64,000 nt of DNA from a bacterium (GTDB lineage Bacteria > Hinthialibacterota > Hinthialibacteria > H5-UNCL2): the NCBI GenBank assembly GCA_015075175.1, contig JABTUV010000008.1, forward strand, positions 126,329 to 190,328. Direction: 5' to 3'. Position numbers and translations under genes: made by a program. Positions 3,827 to 62,745 of the stretch are shown here, in pieces; position 1 is the first letter of the stretch; every line of letters starts with the position of its first letter. Under the pieces are notes generated by a model. That model saw only the letters and a list, made by a program, of their open reading frames with translations. It did no database searches and had not been told where the DNA came from.

Positions 3827-5436
3827 GTGAGTTTCGTCCGTCCCTCGACTCCCATCCGCCGCGCCCTCCTCGCTGGCCGCGTTGCTCTTGTGGGTTGCTC
3901 GTAAGGGCTTTGGGATCTCTGGGGGCGGACGAGGGCCGCTACGTCCAGGTCGCGCGCGAACTCCTGGAGTCCCGCAATCCCTTCCATCTCACCGTGCACG
4001 GCCAACCCTACGACGAGAAACCGCCGCTGGCCTTCGCCATGTTCGCCGCCATGCTGGGGCTTTGCGGGGGCGAAGTATCGCCCTGGGCGGTGCGCTTGCC
4101 GTCGGTACTCTTTGCCTGGATGACGGTCCTTCTCACGTGGGACCTGGGGCGGCGGCGCCTCTCGCCGCGAGCCGGGCTGTGGGCGGGATGGGTGCTGGCG
4201 ACCGCGCCGCTGTTTTTGACCCAGGCGCCGACCGCGCGGTTGGACATGCTCTACGCGGGTTGGACTCTGCTGGCCTTCTGGGCCTGGCTGGCGCGCGACC
4301 CGGCACGACCCCTGCCCGTGCGCCGCGCCGCGCTCTTCTGGCTGGCTCTCCTGGGCGCCTTCTTCACCAAGGGGCCGGTCGCCCTCCTCATCGTCCTTGC
4401 GACCGTCGTTTTCGCCGCCTGGCGCGAGCGACGCCTCGATCGCGCGCGCGAACTGCGCCCGCTCACGGGCTTCTTCACGCTGATCGCCGCCATCGCCGCC
4501 TGGCTCTGGCTGCAGCGCGTTTGGCAGGGGGAAGCTTTCGTCGAGCATCAACTGGAAGAGCAGACCCTCGACCGTCTGCTTCACGGCAACCACGAGGAGG
4601 CCTTCTACTACTATTTTCCGCGGTTGCTTTTCGACATCTTCTTCCCCTGGTCGCTCTTTCTCCTGGCGGGCTTATGGACGTGGTGGAAGCGGCGGGACCT
4701 GCGCACTCCCATTCTGTCCCTCCTGCTCTTCTGGGGCCTGGCGCCGCTCGCGTTGTTCACGCTTGCGGCGGACAAGCGGCAGATGTACCTCCTGCCGCAG
4801 TTGCCCGCGCTGGCGCTCGTGGTCGGCTGGTATCTGGACGCGGTCTTTCTGGATAAGGCGCTGCATCCGCTGGCCGACAGGTTGCTGGGATGGGGGCTGG
4901 CCGCGCTGGCGGTCGCGGGGGCCGTCGCCTATCCGTTTCTGGATACGAGTTTTCCCGGACGGGAGACGTGGTCGGACGTAGTCGTCTTTTACGCGGGGAT
5001 GGCGGCGTTGGCGGGAGCTGGAATGGTTTCCGTCCGGCGCGCGACCGGCGGGGCGGAGTTTGCGCGGCGACTGCTGGCGACCATGCTCGTCTTGGGGATG
5101 TTGAACCACTTGTGGGTCAACCCGATGCTGAATCCGCGCCGCGGCAGCCGGCAGTTCTCGCGCCAAATCGAGACGCTGCTCTCCGAGCACAACCTGCCCA
5201 TGCGCGTGGGTGGGATCGACAACGGCGCCAAGCCGGAATACCACGTGCATGGCCGCTACCGGGTAGTTCCCGTGCTGGACAGGCCGGAGGCGCTGGAGGG
5301 CGCGCCCGAGGTGCTGGTGTTGCGCGAGAAGACTTGGCAGGCGCTGGAGGCGGCCGCCCGCGCGCGCGGTTACCGCCCCGCCTGGCGCGCTACCGTCTCC
5401 TCCGACCCGCTGGTCGTCGCCGTGCGCGCGCACTGA
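3827..5436 (+). CDS. ArnT/PMT-like membrane glycosyltransferase (GT83-type), one N-terminal frameshift
   Basis: From about 3905 to the stop at 5436 the frame encodes a polytopic membrane protein. Its N-terminal catalytic signature is ADEGRYVQVARELL...HGQPYDEKPPLAF, matching the DEGRY...EKPPL region of ArnT/PMT_2 lipid-linked glycosyltransferases that act in the periplasm. About ten hydrophobic segments follow. A soluble C-terminal part of about 120 residues (from about 5140) ends with VLREKTWQALEAAARARG. The best start is GTG 3827, with GGAGGGG eight bases upstream. It encodes a signal-anchor-like VSFVRPSTPIRRALLAG and must shift by one base near 3900 to join the main frame. An uninterrupted frame also runs back to ATG 3736, but its N-terminus does not look membrane-like. 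The acceptor is unknown (lipid A, glycan or protein). Confidence 0.82.
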
Positions 5437-5630: not shown

Positions 5631-6440
5631 GTGGGCGTCTCCATCCTGAACCGCGCCGGCGACCGGCTTCTGGCAGGGCTCCGCCGCGTGTCCGCGTCGC
5701 CGTGCGCCTGCATCATAACGTTGCTCGTCGTGAGCGGCGCCCTCGCCGTTCCCCTGTGCCTGGCCCTCCTCACCCGCATGCAGGGCGTGCTGCTCTTTGG
5801 AGTGCTTGGCGTCCTGATTGTCTACGCTGAGTGGATCGATGGGCGGGCAAGGAACCGGCGGCGCATGTTCTTGCGGGCCGCCTGGCAAGGCGTCGTCCCC
5901 GCGGGGGGAACGCTGGCCGCGGTGGCGCTGGCCTGGATTCAGCTCGGGTACCTGGACAGCAACGGGGGCGCCTTCATGTACACCCAGCTGGCCGACCCCG
6001 CGGCGTTGTTGCCGGCGGCGACGGGCGGTGCGGTTGACGCCACACCCGAGGTGGGCGTCCCAGCCGACGTCGCCGCCGCCATCGAAAACTACAAGAGGGC
6101 CATCGAGCTCCATCCCGACTTTCCCACCGCCTATCGCATGTTGGGTTACGCCTACTTTCAGACCAACCAGTTGGATGCGGCCATCGCGGCCTACGAGAAG
6201 GCGGTGGAGCTGTCGCCCGATTACGTGGACGCGCACAACGGGTTGGCCATGCTGTATTTTCAGAGCGGCCAGTTGGACAAGGCGGCGGCGCAGCAGGAGA
6301 AGGTGAAGGCGCTGGGGGCAGGAGCTTCCGGGCATAGCGTGGAGGGTATGCTCCCTCCGGGCCATCCGCCGATGGGCGCAACCCCCGGCGCGACGGAAAG
6401 ACGTTCGGAATTGCCCGAGGGCCATCCCCCTATCCGGTAG
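5631..6440 (+). CDS. Membrane-anchored TPR protein
   Basis: This 269-residue protein starts at GTG 5631. It has two or three hydrophobic segments (residues about 28-50, 52-66 and 86-103). Two to three tetratricopeptide repeats follow (about residues 140-215), with typical text such as AIENYKRAIELHPDFPTAYRMLGYAYFQTNQLDAAI and AIAAYEKAVELSPDYVDAHNGLAMLYF. The C-terminal tail is rich in Pro/Gly/His and has the repeated phrase PPGHPPMG / PEGHPPIR. TPRs mediate protein contacts and no enzymatic function is visible. It lies about 195 bases after the glycosyltransferase; that gap holds no convincing gene. It may serve in envelope glycoconjugate assembly, but that is guesswork. A hexamer repeat begins immediately after its stop. 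Confidence 0.72.
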   Translation: MGVSILNRAGDRLLAGLRRVSASPCACIITLLVVSGALAVPLCLALLTRMQGVLLFGVLGVLIVYAEWIDGRARNRRRMFLRAAWQGVVPAGGTLAAVALAWIQLGYLDSNGGAFMYTQLADPAALLPAATGGAVDATPEVGVPADVAAAIENYKRAIELHPDFPTAYRMLGYAYFQTNQLDAAIAAYEKAVELSPDYVDAHNGLAMLYFQSGQLDKAAAQQEKVKALGAGASGHSVEGMLPPGHPPMGATPGATERRSELPEGHPPIR

Positions 6441-6446
6441 TCTTTT

Positions 6447-6544
6447 GTCTTAATCTTAATCTTGCTCTTAATCTTGCTTTTGCTCTTGCTCTTAGTCTTG
6501 CTTTTGCTCTTGCTCTTGCTCTTAGTCTTGCTCTTGCTCTTACT
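6447..6544 (-). repeat. Hexamer tract (CTTAAT/CTTGCT/CTTAGT), reverse orientation
   Basis: A pyrimidine-rich run of TTAATC, TTGCTC and TTAGTC units starts seven bases after the TPR gene stop. It is the reverse complement of the tracts at 1767-1940 and 36793-36937. A short piece recurs at about 6707-6725. Confidence 0.88.
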
Positions 6545-6545
6545 A

Positions 6546-6705
6546 CGGCGGCCAGGGAATACCTGGCTTGGGAAGTCGGGCGCAGGCGCAGCACCCCTCG
6601 ATGTGGCCTTCGGCCTATCCTCGGTACGGCCTCTGGCCTACTCGACAAGGCTCAAGCAAGGCGCGGAACCACGGCGTCTCGATGCCAGGTAAAGCGTGGC
6701 CGACG
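6546..6705 (+). repeat. GCCAGG(N)AATACCTGGC element, 'filled' copy
   Basis: Starts with GCGGCCAGGGAATACCTGGC (a palindrome) and continues to GCGCAGCAC. About 75 bases of a CTCGAT...GGCC...CTACTCG insert follow, and the copy resumes with ACGGCGTCTCGATGCCAGGT and ends GTGGCCGACG. The copy at 43391-43490 has the same flanks without the insert. The insert matches the repeats inside fliK. Confidence 0.8.
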
Positions 6706-6785
6706 CAGCAATCTTAATCTTGCTCGTGTTGTCTGAGAGCACACGAGGGTGACTCGGGCATTCTTGCCCGAGTCATGGACGTAGC

Positions 6786-20374: not shown

Positions 20375-21703
20375 ATGAACAGACGTCTCGCCATCGACTG
20401 GAGTTATCACGCCGGGAAAGTGGACGCGGTGGAGACGGTGCGGCACAGCGGGCGGCTGGTGCGGATGGTGGGGCTGGTGGCCGAGTCGCGCGGTCCTCTG
20501 GGCGAGATCGGCGAGCTGTGCCTGATCTCGCCGCCGGCGGGGGGCGCGCCGGTGCCGGCGCAGATTGTGGGCTTCCGCGACGGCAACGTGCTGGTGATGC
20601 CGATGGGAGACGCCAACGGACTGGCGCCGGGCGCGGAGGCTGGTCGGTACGGGCCGTCCACTGGCGCCGGTGGGTGAGGCGCTCCTGGGCCGCATCATCG
20701 ACGGCCTGGGCCGTCCCATCGACGGCGGGCCTCCTCTTACCCTGCGCGACCGCCAGGTGATCGACGCTCCCGCGCCCGCTCCCTGGCCCGCCGTCGCATC
20801 CGCCAGCCTCTGCCCACCAGCGTGCGCGCCATCGACGGTCTTTTGACCCTGGGCAAGGGCCAGCGCATGGGCATCTTCTCCGGCAGCGGCGTCGGCAAGA
20901 GCACGCTCCTGGGCATGATCGCCCGCTATTGCACCGCCGACGTCAACGTGATCGGGCTGGTGGGCGAACGCGGGCGCGAGGTCAAGGATTTCATCGAGCG
21001 CGATCTGGGGCCGGAGGGGTTGGCGCGCAGCATCGTGGTCGTGGCCACCAGCGACCAGCCCGCGCTCGTGCGCATCGCCGGCGCCAAACTGGCCATGACG
21101 CTGGCCGAATACTTCCGCGACCTGGGCAAGGACGTGATCCTGATGGTGGACAACCTGACGCGCATGGCCGTGGCGCAGCGGGAGGTAGGGTTGTCCGCCG
21201 GCGAGCCGCCCACCACGCGCGGCTACACCCCCTCCGTCTTCGCCATGCTTCCCCGCTACCTGGAGCGCGCCGGCATCCTGGCGGAGGGCGGCTCGATTAC
21301 CGGCCTGTTTGCGGTTCTGGTCGAAGCCGACGACATGAACGAGCCGGTCGCCGACGCGGTCCGCGCCATCCTGGACGGGCACGTGGTGCTCTCGCGCGAG
21401 CTGGCCAACCGCAACCACTATCCCTGCGTAGACGTGCTGGCCAGCGTGTCGCGCGTGATGATGGACGTGGTTTCGCCCGAGGTCTTCGCCGCCGCCCAAC
21501 GCGTGCGCGCGGTACTGGCTACCTATCGGCAGGCCGAGGATCTCATCAACATCGGCGCCTACAGCCGCGGCAACAGTCCCGCCATCGACCATGCGATCGC
21601 GCATCATGGCAGGATCACCGAGTTTCTGCGGCAGGGCATGTTCGAGCACGAGAACCTGGACAGCACCCTGGAACGTCTGGAAGGGCTGGTGCGGGAGGGT
21701 TAA
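20375..21703 (+). CDS. fliI: Flagellum-specific export ATPase FliI, two frameshifts
   Basis: About 443 residues. The N-terminal beta domain reads GRLVRMVGLVAESRGPLGEIGELC. Walker A is GSGVGKSTLLG, with GLVGERGREVKDFIE next, then Walker B and DNLTRMAVAQREVGLSAGEPP. The C-terminal part matches FliI (GAYSRGNSPAIDHAI). Two missing bases (near 20640, and in CTCCCTGG near 20783) split it, while 20822-21703 is clean. FliI forms a hexamer at the export gate with FliH and FliJ and couples ATP hydrolysis to substrate export. Four bases separate it from the FliJ-MotE gene. Confidence 0.93.
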
Positions 21704-23086: not shown

Positions 23087-25585
23087 ATGAATGCGTTTAC
23101 TTTACCCGTTGGTTTTCCGGGTTTGGGGACGACTATGATGGAAGGTGGACCTGGAGAAGTTCCCGTATCTGCTGTCTCTCATAGCAACGGAAGCTTTCTG
23201 GGGCTTCTTTCAGGACTGGCGCCTCCGCCGGCGCCGGCGCCGGAGTTTGATGCGTTCGTGTGGCGGCCGATGCCGTTTTACGACGGGGACGCTCTTGAGG
23301 CGTCTCCCGTGGTATTGGCGCGGACGCCCGTGGACTTGCTCTTCGGCGACGCCGAGGGCGAGCCGCCGCGCTGGCGCCTTTCGACGGTGGATACTGGGGG
23401 GCGGCCCATGCGGGTCAGGATCGAGTTGCCGGTTTTCGCCGCGCAAAATTCCCCCCAACCCCCCTTGTTAAGGGGGGAGCATACGTCTCATGCGTCCCAT
23501 GAGTCCCATTCCCCTGGCGGTCTGTCGCCGCCTTTGCAAGAGGGGGTCGCCGGCGCCGTGCAACCGTCGGCTGAGGGGCGCGTATGGGCGCTGCCCGCCG
23601 TGCAACGCGACGGCGCGCTGTTTGTGCAACTGCCTTTGACCCTGGACGCGGCGCCCACCGACACGCCGCCGAAGCCTGCAAGCGAACCGGCTGGTCCGTG
23701 GCTGGCCTTCACGCCCGCATCGATGGGTGCGGTCGAGGTCCAACTGATTTCGACCTTGCCTCCGCTTTCGCCGCAGGATGCGAGGCCGGTGGACAAACCC
23801 ATGGGCGCCATGCCCGAGCGGTCGTCGGCTCCGACCGCCAAACCGATCACGCTTCCTCTGCCGGGCAAACCGGAGGGAGGTCTGGTCGCCCGCTTGCAGC
23901 TGGCGCCTGCGGAGGGTGAACCGCCCAAGACTGGCTCTTCGGGGACGCCCGTCATGCCCGAGGCGGCGCGCGCCAAACAGGCCGACCTCGTTCGGTCGGG
24001 AGTGCCCGCGCTTCCCAAACATGGTCCACCGCCGGCGGATCTACCGAACCCGGTGGCGCCGCCGGTCGTGCGCGAAATTCCGATCCTCGTTCCTTCGGTT
24101 CCGCCGAAGGAGGGGATCGAATTCTCGCCGGTCGTACCCGAAGCGACAGGAGCTCGGCCCGCGGTCGAACCGGCGGCTTTGCCGTCGCGTCCTGCCGATG
24201 CGGCGCCAGTGCAAACGCCGCCGACGGTGGAGCAACCCGCCGTTGCGGTCGTCAAACTGGTGGACGTGCGGCAGGCGACCCCGGAACGCTTGCAGGTGGA
24301 ACTGGCCGTGGAACCGGTCAAGCCGGAGCGACCCGCTCCTCGACCTCCGGTCTTCCCACGTTTGCCGGAACTGTCTCCCGCCGTGCGCCTGCGCATCGAA
24401 TCGGCGCCCGTAGTTGCGCAGCGCCTTGCCCCGAGTAGGCCGGAGGCTGTATCGAGGGGTGCTGCGCCTGCAATTGACCCTGCGCAACGTAATGCACCGG
24501 AGATTGTAGTTGCGCAGCGCCTTGCCCCGACTAGGCCGGAGGCTGTATCGAGGGGTGCTGCGCCTTTGTCGCATGTTGAACCGGATACGGACTCGGCTGC
24601 GTTCGAGTTCATGTCCAAACCGGCTGCGCGGGGGAGTTATCCCCCCCGACCCCCCTTGTTAAGGGGGGAGTTTGAGGCGCCCGTAATAAGGGGGGAGTTG
24701 TATCCCTCCCAACCCTCCTTGGTAAGGGGGGAGGTTGAGGTGCAGGGCAAGACCGACTCGTACGTGGTCCAGGCGGGAGGGCAGACCACCCGCGTGTGGT
24801 CGGATACGGCCATGGCGGAGCGCATCAACGCCTCGCCGCTGCCGAACCTGCAACCGCCGCTGGAGAGGCCTGCCGAACGCGCCAACGGCCAGCCCAAGTT
24901 GGCGGCGGACGCGTTCGCCCAGGTCAAACCGGCGGAGGGCAGGGAGGCCCCTGTACCCAATCGTCCGATTGGGGAACGCACGGTCCAACCGGCCGAGTTT
25001 CGCGTGATCGCCACGACGACGGAGCGTCCGGCGACGGCGGGCGAGCGCATCGTGACCACGCCGGTGGCGGCTGCGGTTGAAGGGACTTCGCCCGCGCGCG
25101 CGGTCGAGTCCCCCACTGTTCTTGCGCCGACGGCTTCCAACGGCGGCACGCCGCTGGAGACGGACGCGCTGGACCAGGTCGTCCGCAACGCCCGCTTGAT
25201 GTCGGAATCCGGCCGGAGCACGTTGCGCGTGCAACTGGTTCCCGAGCAGTTGGGACGGCTGGACATCAGCCTGGTGGCCGAGGGGGAGCGCGTGACCCTG
25301 CAGATCGTGGCGGGGCAGGCTCGCACCGAATCGCTTCTCTCGCGCAATTTCGACCAACTGCATCGCATGTTGGAGAGCGCGGGTCTGCGCGTGCAGCAGG
25401 TGGCGGTCCTGTCGGCTGCGCCGGCGCCGCCGGTCGTCTCCAATCCGGAGCCGACGCCGCTGGAACGCCACGCTGCGCACGACCAGCCCCGGCAGAACGG
25501 CCACGAGCACGCCGGCCACGGCCGGCACGAGCGGCGCGACGGTCGCGCCGCACACGATTGGCAGGAACAGGAATGGTGGGGTTGA
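23087..25585 (+). CDS. fliK: Flagellar hook-length control protein FliK, repeat-expanded
   Basis: 832 residues, longer than most FliK proteins. The start ATG 23087 has a near-ideal ribosome site AAAGGAGGTGA. The first about 690 residues are Pro/Ala-rich and disordered. They contain in-frame DNA repeats: NSPQPPLLRGEHTSHASHES (23451-23515), two 32-codon repeats with VVAQRLAP(S/T)RPEAVSRGAAP (24410-24565), and YPPRPPLLRGEFEAPVIRGE with a further LVRGEVEV unit (24633-24735). The conserved Flg_hook domain is at the C-terminus (STLRVQLVPEQLGRLDISL, ESLLSRNFDQLHRMLESAGL), ending with a His-rich tail. FliK acts as the export-substrate switch with FlhB and as a ruler. Its variable linker is expected to tolerate insertions. 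Confidence 0.9.
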   Translation: MNAFTLPVGFPGLGTTMMEGGPGEVPVSAVSHSNGSFLGLLSGLAPPPAPAPEFDAFVWRPMPFYDGDALEASPVVLARTPVDLLFGDAEGEPPRWRLSTVDTGGRPMRVRIELPVFAAQNSPQPPLLRGEHTSHASHESHSPGGLSPPLQEGVAGAVQPSAEGRVWALPAVQRDGALFVQLPLTLDAAPTDTPPKPASEPAGPWLAFTPASMGAVEVQLISTLPPLSPQDARPVDKPMGAMPERSSAPTAKPITLPLPGKPEGGLVARLQLAPAEGEPPKTGSSGTPVMPEAARAKQADLVRSGVPALPKHGPPPADLPNPVAPPVVREIPILVPSVPPKEGIEFSPVVPEATGARPAVEPAALPSRPADAAPVQTPPTVEQPAVAVVKLVDVRQATPERLQVELAVEPVKPERPAPRPPVFPRLPELSPAVRLRIESAPVVAQRLAPSRPEAVSRGAAPAIDPAQRNAPEIVVAQRLAPTRPEAVSRGAAPLSHVEPDTDSAAFEFMSKPAARGSYPPRPPLLRGEFEAPVIRGELYPSQPSLVRGEVEVQGKTDSYVVQAGGQTTRVWSDTAMAERINASPLPNLQPPLERPAERANGQPKLAADAFAQVKPAEGREAPVPNRPIGERTVQPAEFRVIATTTERPATAGERIVTTPVAAAVEGTSPARAVESPTVLAPTASNGGTPLETDALDQVVRNARLMSESGRSTLRVQLVPEQLGRLDISLVAEGERVTLQIVAGQARTESLLSRNFDQLHRMLESAGLRVQQVAVLSAAPAPPVVSNPEPTPLERHAAHDQPRQNGHEHAGHGRHERRDGRAAHDWQEQEWWG
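23451..23515. repeat. CCCCCCTTGTTAAGGGGGGA plus CCCATG(A/G)GTCCCAT repeats in fliK
   Basis: The palindrome CCCCCCTTGTTAAGGGGGGA is immediately followed by ACGTCTCATGCGTCCCATGA-GTCCCATTC. Both belong to families seen in intergenic DNA (62553-62580; 57502-57541, 58739-58780, 45462-45513). Both are read in frame in the disordered part of FliK. Confidence 0.85.
24410..24565 (-). repeat. Two tandem 96-base repeats inside fliK (hairpin element)
   Basis: TAGTTGCGCAGCGCCTTGCC...CTAGGCCGGAGGCTGTATCGAGGGGTGCTGCGCC occurs at 24411 and again at 24507, almost identical. The period is exactly 32 codons. On the minus strand this reads GCGCAGCACCCCTCGATA...GGCCTACTCGGGGCAAGGCGCTGCGCAACTAC, matching the insert at 6590-6665 and its flanks in the element at 43391-43490. 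Confidence 0.9.
24633..24735. repeat. Run of TTAAGGGGGGAG-type repeats inside fliK
   Basis: Contains CCCCCCTTGTTAAGGGGGGA at 24650-24670, a half unit AATAAGGGGGGAG at about 24684, and CCTCCTTGGTAAGGGGGGAG at about 24711-24733. All are read in frame (LLRGE, VIRGE, LVRGE). Confidence 0.85.
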
Positions 25586-34580: not shown

Positions 34581-35333
34581 ATGATGGACGCTCTGATCGT
34601 CCGGAGTACAAACTTCAGTTTCGTCAGGGACAAGCTAAAGCTTGTACTCCGAGAGCGTATCCGGAGTACAAACTTCAGTTTGGTCTTGGACAAGCTAAAG
34701 CTTGTACTCCGGGGGGTGATTCTCATCGTTGCGTGGTCGGTGGTCGCGCCGGTGGGAGCGTACGGCGTAAACGCGGCGAGCGAGGAGACGGTCGCGGCCA
34801 GCGACGCGGTCGCCTTGCGCAACGCCGAGGTCTTGCGCGGCATAAAGGAGGCGCAGACGCGGCAGGCGCAGGGGCTGGCCCGCCAGGCCACCGCCGGGCC
34901 GGTCGCCCCCGCCCGCAGCCCTTCGCTCTGGGGTCTCTTCTGGAACGTCTGCCTCTCGCTGGCCGTCGTCTTGGGGCTTTTGTACGGCATCTTGCGCCTC
35001 CTGCGGCGCAACCTGACGCTGGCCGGCCGGCACGCGCCCGACCGCGTGCGCGTGGTCTCGCGCACCGCCCTGTCCAACCGCAGCTCGCTCTACATCGTCG
35101 AGGTGGCGGCGCGCACGCTCTTGGTAGGCGAATCGCAGAACGGCGGCGTGCGGCTCGTGTGCGATCTGGGGCTGTCGCGCGAGGAGATGGAAGCGACCGC
35201 GGGACGCGAGGCCATGGACGAGGTCTTCGCCGACCGCGCGCTGTCGGAGTCGCCGCTCTCCTTCTCGCGTGAACTGAAAGCCTGCCTGCGCTTTCTGCGC
35301 AGCGTGGGCAAACGCAGCGAGAGGGAAGAATAG
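34581..35333 (+). CDS. fliO: Flagellar biosynthesis protein FliO with repeat insertion in its leader
   Basis: The core (residues about 110-200) has a TM helix (NVCLSLAVVLGLLYGILRLL), followed by RVRVVSRTALSNRSSLYIVE and LLVGESQNGGVRLV, typical of FliO. An ATG at 34581 sits three bases after the fliN stop and gives MMDALIV. Two copies of the ACTTCAGTTT palindrome (34602-34712, exactly 37 codons) are then read in frame, with a signal-like VILIVAWSVVAPVGAYG next. Alternatively, translation begins at GTG 34716 immediately after the repeats. FliO helps assemble the FliP/FliQ/FliR gate. Removing the 111 bases would leave a perfect leader, so the insertion looks secondary. Confidence 0.85.
   Translation: MMDALIVRSTNFSFVRDKLKLVLRERIRSTNFSLVLDKLKLVLRGVILIVAWSVVAPVGAYGVNAASEETVAASDAVALRNAEVLRGIKEAQTRQAQGLARQATAGPVAPARSPSLWGLFWNVCLSLAVVLGLLYGILRLLRRNLTLAGRHAPDRVRVVSRTALSNRSSLYIVEVAARTLLVGESQNGGVRLVCDLGLSREEMEATAGREAMDEVFADRALSESPLSFSRELKACLRFLRSVGKRSEREE
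34602..34712 (+). repeat. Two GGAGTACAAACTTCAGTTT palindromes in the fliO leader
   Basis: Units at 34602 and 34662 (60-base period). Each has GGAGTACAAACTTCAGTTT and CAAGCTAAAGCTTGTACTCC arms. The whole insert is 111 bases, divisible by three. It belongs to the same family as 16833, 29961 and 60061. Confidence 0.93.
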
Positions 35334-43353: not shown

Positions 43354-43390
43354 GATAACGAACGAGATCGCCAGTACGATCAGAATTACT

Positions 43391-43490
43391 ATGCCGGCCA
43401 GGAAATACCTGGCTTGGGACGGCGGGCGCACGCGCAGCACGCTGCGCAACTACGGCGTCTCAATGCCGGGTAGAGTGTGGCCGACGTAAT
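43391..43490 (+). repeat. GCCAGG(N)AATACCTGGC element, 'empty' copy
   Basis: Has the same ends as 6546-6705 (GGCCAGGAAATACCTGGCTT ... GGCGTCTCAATGCCGGGTAG, TGTGGCCGACG), but GCGCAGCAC joins directly to GCTGCGCAACTACGGCG. It occupies the flhG to 43513 gap. Confidence 0.85.
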
Positions 43491-43512
43491 AACGGCGTGA
43501 GGTCAGCGGACC

Positions 43513-62552: not shown

Positions 62553-62745
62553 GAATCCTCCCCCTTGTTAAGGGGGGAGTGCGGCTGCTTGCTGCCGCGC
62601 GCAGCCGGCAAGCCGCCCCTGACAGCCCCTGAGCGAAGCCCGAAGTCGAGGGGCGGCCTTGGGCGCAGGACGCTCGCGTCGCGACGATCCCCCTCGTCAA
62701 GGGGAGACGCGGACACGGCAAGCAGCCGCACTCACACGGGGAACT
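62553..62745. repeat. Composite intergenic repeats between divergent genes
   Basis: In order: CCCCCTTGTTAAGGGGGG (62559), GGCTGCTTGCTGCCGCGC, CCCTGAGCGAAGCCCGAAGT-CGAGGGGCGG (about 62625), CCCCTCGTCAAGGGGAG (62691), and GGCAAGCAGCCGC. The outer GCGGCTGCTTGCTGCCG and CGGCAAGCAGCCGC parts form a larger inverted repeat that encloses the others. The gap (62443-62880) holds no gene I can support, but the promoters of both neighbours must lie here. Confidence 0.82.

Follow-up and report, generated by a model that had tools for sequence, protein, structure and literature searches.

A probable GTAG-type REP family lying in frame within fliK and other genes of a bacterium from a little-studied phylum

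The closest described systems are the GTAG-type REPs. In the published families (Di Nocera et al. 2013, PMC3733652; Nunvar et al. 2010, PMC2817692), an unpaired GTAG lies 5′ of a short GC-rich stem, hundreds of copies are found mostly outside genes near their 3′ ends, and some families have longer self-complementary loops. These REPs often give the TAG stop of a gene, and they also sit inside genes, sometimes twice (PMC3733652). TnpA_REP recognises the GTAG and the hairpin; in the systems studied the GTAG has a role in recognition and guidance, and the cut is made at CT (PMC8266576). REPs without a cognate RAYT in the genome are often seen (PMC3686654).

The repeat described here, which we followed from a fliK gene in a stretch of 64,000 nt (the window, meaning the whole stretch of DNA that was analysed), has a similar layout: a 5′ unpaired GTAG, a short GC-rich stem, hundreds of copies that are mostly extragenic near 3′ ends with TAG as the stop, and in-frame intragenic copies, including a double one. 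Given the GTAG foot, the hairpin, the copy number and the placement after genes, we assign it to the GTAG-type REPs, and we consider it very probable that such a REP occurs in coding sequences (fliK twice, a GH29 fucosidase and glycosyltransferase-like genes) and is read there as codons. It differs from the published families in its sequence, which was not matched to any of them on their text descriptions; in a 36-nt hairpin nested in the loop, whereas tabulated loops are 2–20 nt and at most 27 nt (Bradyrhizobium GTAG-14 type); and in its body lengths of 18 and 54 nt, which are multiples of three. That GTAG REPs overlap stops and sit inside genes is already known (PMC3733652). The present family adds the nested-hairpin form and records in-frame REPs in a phylum that has been little studied.

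The initial annotation had likened the fliK repeat to Rickettsia palindromic elements. As an analogy this is fair, both being palindromes in frame within unrelated genes whose frames are open, but GTAG-type REPs come closer. RPE-4 and RPE-6 are CGTC REPs (PMC3733652), whereas the present family has no CGTC foot, belongs to an unrelated host and is mostly intergenic, and is set apart by description. A Rickettsia-type element was rejected as an identification: the analogy is its one support, the foot is GTAG and not CGTC, and the kin of this bacterium, judged by FliG, are Candidatus Hinthialibacteria-type MAGs (nearest named FliG matches, at 67–69% identity: MAG RI_285, an 'Omnitrophota' MAG and Candidatus Hinthialibacteria OLB16), a group to which it probably belongs itself.

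Copy number, anatomy and distribution of the repeat

The genome comprises 4.98 Mb in 49 contigs and is 84% complete. The sample consisted of 0.8 Mb of contig 1 (C1) and of selected stretches picked for holding copies; genes were called with a home-made caller, which splits frameshifted genes, and 98 sampled copies were placed relative to genes with blastn. In the genome, the core of the fliK repeat gave 41 matches of 56–96 nt at 84–100% identity, the fliK copies included. The pattern GTAGTTGCGCAGC has 192 exact genomic copies and its reversed control 0, and the bare 22-bp REP GTAGTTGCGCAGCGTGCTGCGC, allowing up to 2 mismatches, has 233 copies, again with 0 for the control. With hundreds of copies against none in the reversed controls, the REP is dispersed far beyond chance. 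The initial annotation had proposed that an intergenic hairpin family entered a coding sequence with the frame kept, and had named a lack of further genomic copies as one of two results that would tell against it; the search with the core returned hundreds instead, and these, together with the open fliK frame, bear the proposal out.

The bare form, GTAG-TT-GCGCAGCGTGCTGCGC, measures 22 bp (GTAG plus 18 nt) with a 6-bp stem, which falls within the 20–40 bp stem-loops of GTAG-type REPs. The filled form, at least 40 copies of which exist, is longer at 58 bp (GTAG plus 54 nt), and its loop holds the additional 36-nt second hairpin. When 37 filled and 58 bare copies were aligned, both ends were sharp, 5′ GTAG and 3′ GCGC, conservation fell outside them, and C was the preferred base just before GTAG. 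The GTAG is exact in 37 of the 43 confident copies in the 0.8 Mb. In the predicted fold, the GTAG foot is unpaired and is followed by TT and then by the stem. Over 30 filled copies, 97.5% of the pairs are standard; doubly changed pairs number three, all in the inner helix, and the outer helix is mostly near-invariant and hence little informative for pairing. These comparisons support a putative hairpin in the filled copies. GTAG-type REPs frequently occur as head-head or tail-tail dimers; here some copies form close or overlapping inverted pairs, as at C1:934975/934990 and at 6680/6755 of locus L086, which are examples and not a systematic count.

Copies lie mostly between genes, on both strands, and follow genes near their 3′ ends. 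Among relatives in the class, a variant, GTAGGGGCGCAGCGTGCTGCGC, is present in one of 13 genomes, with 7 copies; the filled REP was not found in 40 relatives, and a scan of a genome-contig collection, which may omit the window's own genome, gave no match to the filled-core pattern. Nor was a RAYT flanked by the present REP found among the three Y1_Tnp genes of the 84% complete genome. All three stand beside other repeats. Two of them, at 4315–4974 of L086 (contig C5) and at 5765–6430 of L087 (contig C46), are IS200-like, one amid GGAGT(A/T)CAAxCTTxAGxTTG hairpins and one between AAAATTAGGGTCAGCGCCTAATTTT ends (AATTAGG...); these genes are possibly cognate to the neighbouring repeat families.

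Copies within fliK and other coding sequences

The fliK open reading frame (23087–25585, forward strand) spans 832 codons, the start being 23087 or a downstream position such as 23270. It carries the C-terminal Flg_hook domain of FliK (PF02120) at 25187–25414, residues 701–776, with a score over the curated cut-off. Two filled REP copies of 58 bp each lie head-to-tail on the same strand: copy 1, at 24410–24467, codes for VVAQRLAPSRPEAVSRGAA(P), residues 442–461, and copy 2, at 24506–24563, codes for VVAQRLAPTRPEAVSRGAA(P), residues 474–493. Their nested inner hairpins are at 24429–24459 and 24525–24555, and CT stands directly 3′ of each copy. Both are in the same frame, giving the peptide VVAQRLAP(S/T)RPEAVSRGAAP, and the REP-coded stretch includes VVAQRLAPSRPEAVSR. 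A filled fliK copy is free of stops in four of the six reading frames. Translation of the REPs as FliK residues is thus putative, read from the open frame.

The initial annotation had described two almost identical in-frame units of 96 nt. The two units stand, but their length does not: the copies agree over 60 nt (24410–24469 and 24506–24565, one mismatch, 98% identity), of which 58 bp are conserved in the family. Because a 36-nt spacer (24470–24505) follows copy 1 and a different sequence follows copy 2, the 96-nt stretch is not repeated in tandem, and the REP contributes 2 × 20 residues rather than the 64 codons once supposed to be inserted. A duplication that kept the frame had also been claimed; the frame is indeed intact, and we regard duplication in situ as likely, given that the variant GGCTGTATCG is common to both fliK copies and otherwise occurs in one sampled copy only (L028). 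The same variant tells against two independent insertions, a reading to which we give a little under an even chance: it would explain why neither the spacer nor the downstream flank is repeated, and copy 1 differs by one mismatch from a copy on contig C5, which is equally close to it as copy 2.

In FliK proteins, the middle region shows little conservation and can be repetitive. This, with the 98% identity of the two copies, might suggest a native tandem repeat of the FliK ruler, the other genomic copies being derived from fliK or chance likenesses. We give this reading next to no credence, in view of the more than 230 copies elsewhere, which have identical ends, are mostly intergenic and lie on both strands; moreover, the same peptide is found in an unrelated fucosidase and not in the homologues of that fucosidase. 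The native repeat was rejected as contradicted by the genomic copies and by the fucosidase copy. The peptide was not found in FliK of the class relatives searched either, and the second result that would have told against the initial annotation, its conservation in fliK of distant relatives, thus did not arise, but since these proteins align over the C-terminal Flg_hook domain only, this absence is weak evidence and an empty site in fliK is not readable.

Besides those in fliK, the 98 sampled copies include eight that are in frame within coding sequence, two of them doubtful. Some bare in-gene calls with 3 mismatches (C1:524030 and C1:629098) may be chance. The clearest in-gene copy lies in an alpha-L-fucosidase gene (GH29, PF01120; C45:139276–141114), as LPPMP-VVAQRLAPSRPQAVSRGAAAP-IKIVS, where the REP-coded stretch includes VVAQRLAPSRPQAVSR. 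Its frame is that of the fliK REPs, and the fucosidase reading frame is intact with the insert. All 14 of the 14 aligned class homologues, at 37–57% identity, show a gap of 21 residues at this place; therefore, independently of fliK, the REP DNA is an insertion in an open gene. Two membrane glycosyltransferase-like proteins likewise have extra REP-coded residues, read from the opposite strand and in different frames. This homologue evidence for the fucosidase insertion is new, as is the finding of one repeat-encoded peptide in two unrelated proteins, FliK and the GH29 fucosidase.

Another palindrome, unrelated to the REP and absent from the initial annotation, is also in frame in fliK. Its three copies, of the form CCCCCC-TTGTTAA-GGGGGGA, are on the forward strand at 23459–23478 (coding PPLLRGE), 24650–24669 and 24713–24732, and they bring the total in fliK to five palindromes from two families. 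No copies of it were found at the fliK loci of relatives. In fliI, which lies upstream in the fliK operon, there is a short frameshifted stretch at about 20660–20820, after which the frame is regained; this frameshift could reflect assembly indels or operon decay. The gathering of five palindromes in one gene and the break in fliI are what a decaying fliK or operon would offer, with hairpins accumulating in a pseudogene and the open frame an accident. We consider such decay improbable. The 832-codon frame of fliK is unbroken and its Flg_hook domain scores above the curated cut-off, both fliG and flgD are intact, the fucosidase is intact despite its insert, and the fliI break, being short with the frame restored, resembles assembly indels as much as decay.

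The reading of the fliK REPs as codons of a working gene bears on hook length, FliK being a molecular ruler. In Salmonella, insertions in FliK lengthen the hook and deletions shorten it, the linker belonging to the ruler (PMC6972891). The fliK REPs lie before the C-terminal switch domain, in a stretch that is poorly conserved and presumably disordered, and extra length is likely to be tolerated in this middle region. If the protein is made, the 40 REP-coded residues would be expected to lengthen the ruler, and hook length in nanometres could serve to measure the effect of the insert.

Overlap with gene stops and frame survival

In 20 of the 98 sampled copies, the TAG of the element is the stop of the upstream gene. 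Of 20 same-strand cases in the 0.8 Mb, 11 have the TAG precisely on the stop (offset 0), and the offsets of the others scatter from 18 to 342. Such overlap alone could mean truncation, since an open reading frame always ends at its first stop. However, the C-termini are complete, or nearly so to within a few residues, in the genes that could be checked. L14 with a REP-overlapped stop matches over 122 of 122 residues, to the last one, and RpoD ends at its usual place; the aligned residues are 183 of 183 in a peptidyl-tRNA hydrolase, 193 of 194 in an Fe-ADH, 368 of 370 in a PilB-type T2SSE protein and 110 of 110 in a molybdopterin-binding domain. From this the stop seems to be the gene's own, with the element joined directly behind it. 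Intact C-termini at REP-overlapping stops are, like the fucosidase gap, a new element of the picture.

The 11 exact overlaps out of 20, taken with the canonical C-termini of RpoD, L14 and the peptidyl-tRNA hydrolase, suggest that the GTAG is part of the target and that the body is a multiple of three nucleotides. We propose, tentatively and with clearly less than even confidence, that the family is frame-neutral, joining 3′ of a GTAG in the target and adding 18 or 54 nt, so that its members would be in-frame protein-lengthening elements, acting in this case on the FliK ruler. In the main reading, the REP is a short non-autonomous element of a kind attributed to IS200-like tyrosine transposases (RAYT/TnpA_REP), and would join beside a GTAG that pre-exists in the target. 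A net addition of 18 or 54 nt, in each case a multiple of three, is the likely reason that the frame survives; the stop-free frames of the filled fliK copy would help as well. Insertion right behind a TAG stop would leave the protein whole, insertion inside a gene would lengthen it by 6 or 18 codons and leave the frame as it was, and swapping of the 36-nt loop would likewise be frame-neutral. The exact overlap with native stops leads in this way to a simple testable rule, namely GTAG-adjacent insertion of 3n bases.

Alternatively, REPs may carry their own GTAG and insert anywhere, selection keeping those insertions that preserve the frame or supply a stop. The literature is worded in this sense, REP termini being said to 'provide' the TAG stop (PMC3733652), and copies inside genes are few beside those lying between genes, which matches the expectation under selection. 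The fucosidase points the same way: its element is 61 bp long and the gap of 63 nt fits the whole element plus 2 nt, not the element minus GTAG (57 nt). These lengths, together with the published guide role of GTAG, which is not known as a target, and the cleavage at CT (PMC8266576), weaken the case for GTAG as target. However, random insertion would not be expected to hit the native stop exactly in 11 of 20 cases while the others scatter from 18 to 342, and the C-termini are complete in RpoD, L14 and several others. We take insertion with an own GTAG to be a possible account, and lean against it. Two more families of GTAG hairpins in this genome, GTAGGGTGCGCAYCGCGCACC and GTAGGGTGGGTTTTACCCACC, likewise overlap TAG stops (contig C1, loci L043–L082). 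On contig C1, a G precedes the stop in 87 of 138 genes ending in TAG and in 64 of 105 ending in TAA.

Carrier elements and other palindromes

REPs are also found within longer inverted-repeat elements, which we call carriers. One in the window, at 43386–43492 on the reverse strand, is a hairpin of 107 bp with terminal inverted repeats of about 30 bp (TTACTACGnCGGCCA...) and a bare REP in its middle (43432–43453, reverse strand). Another, a degenerate member at 6540–6711 on the reverse strand, holds a degenerate filled REP with a GTGG foot and a doubled inner hairpin. Both do hold the reverse complement of the fliK core, as had been noticed at the outset. A bare REP is also carried at L093, and filled REPs at L002, L100, L101, C1:119983 and C1:283772. 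The bare and filled REPs occupy one position in the carrier, with a difference of exactly 36 nt between them. No REP-free carrier was seen among the copies sampled, and therefore no empty site. With its terminal inverted repeats of about 30 bp and its several copies, the carrier at 43386–43492 resembles MITEs and the elements of TIR-associated tyrosine transposases; unlike MITEs, every carrier copy seen contains a REP, and a transposase with matching ends was not found.

More generally, small palindromes belonging to several families abound in this genome. The palindrome CCCCCCTTGTTAAGGGGGGA, present three times in fliK as PPLLRGE-type peptides, occurs also at 62559–62578 of the window, and it has 29 matches in the 0.8 Mb of contig 1, including 9 within predicted genes. 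A hairpin of the type GGAGTGCGGCAGCTTGCTGCCGC adjoins several REP copies (flanks of L022 and L025). Finally, the predicted N-terminus of an open reading frame (34581–34720 of the window; MMDALIVRSTNFSFVRDKLKLVLRERIRSTNFSLVLDKLKLVLRG) resembles the translation of hairpins of yet another family in tandem, and its start is probably wrong.
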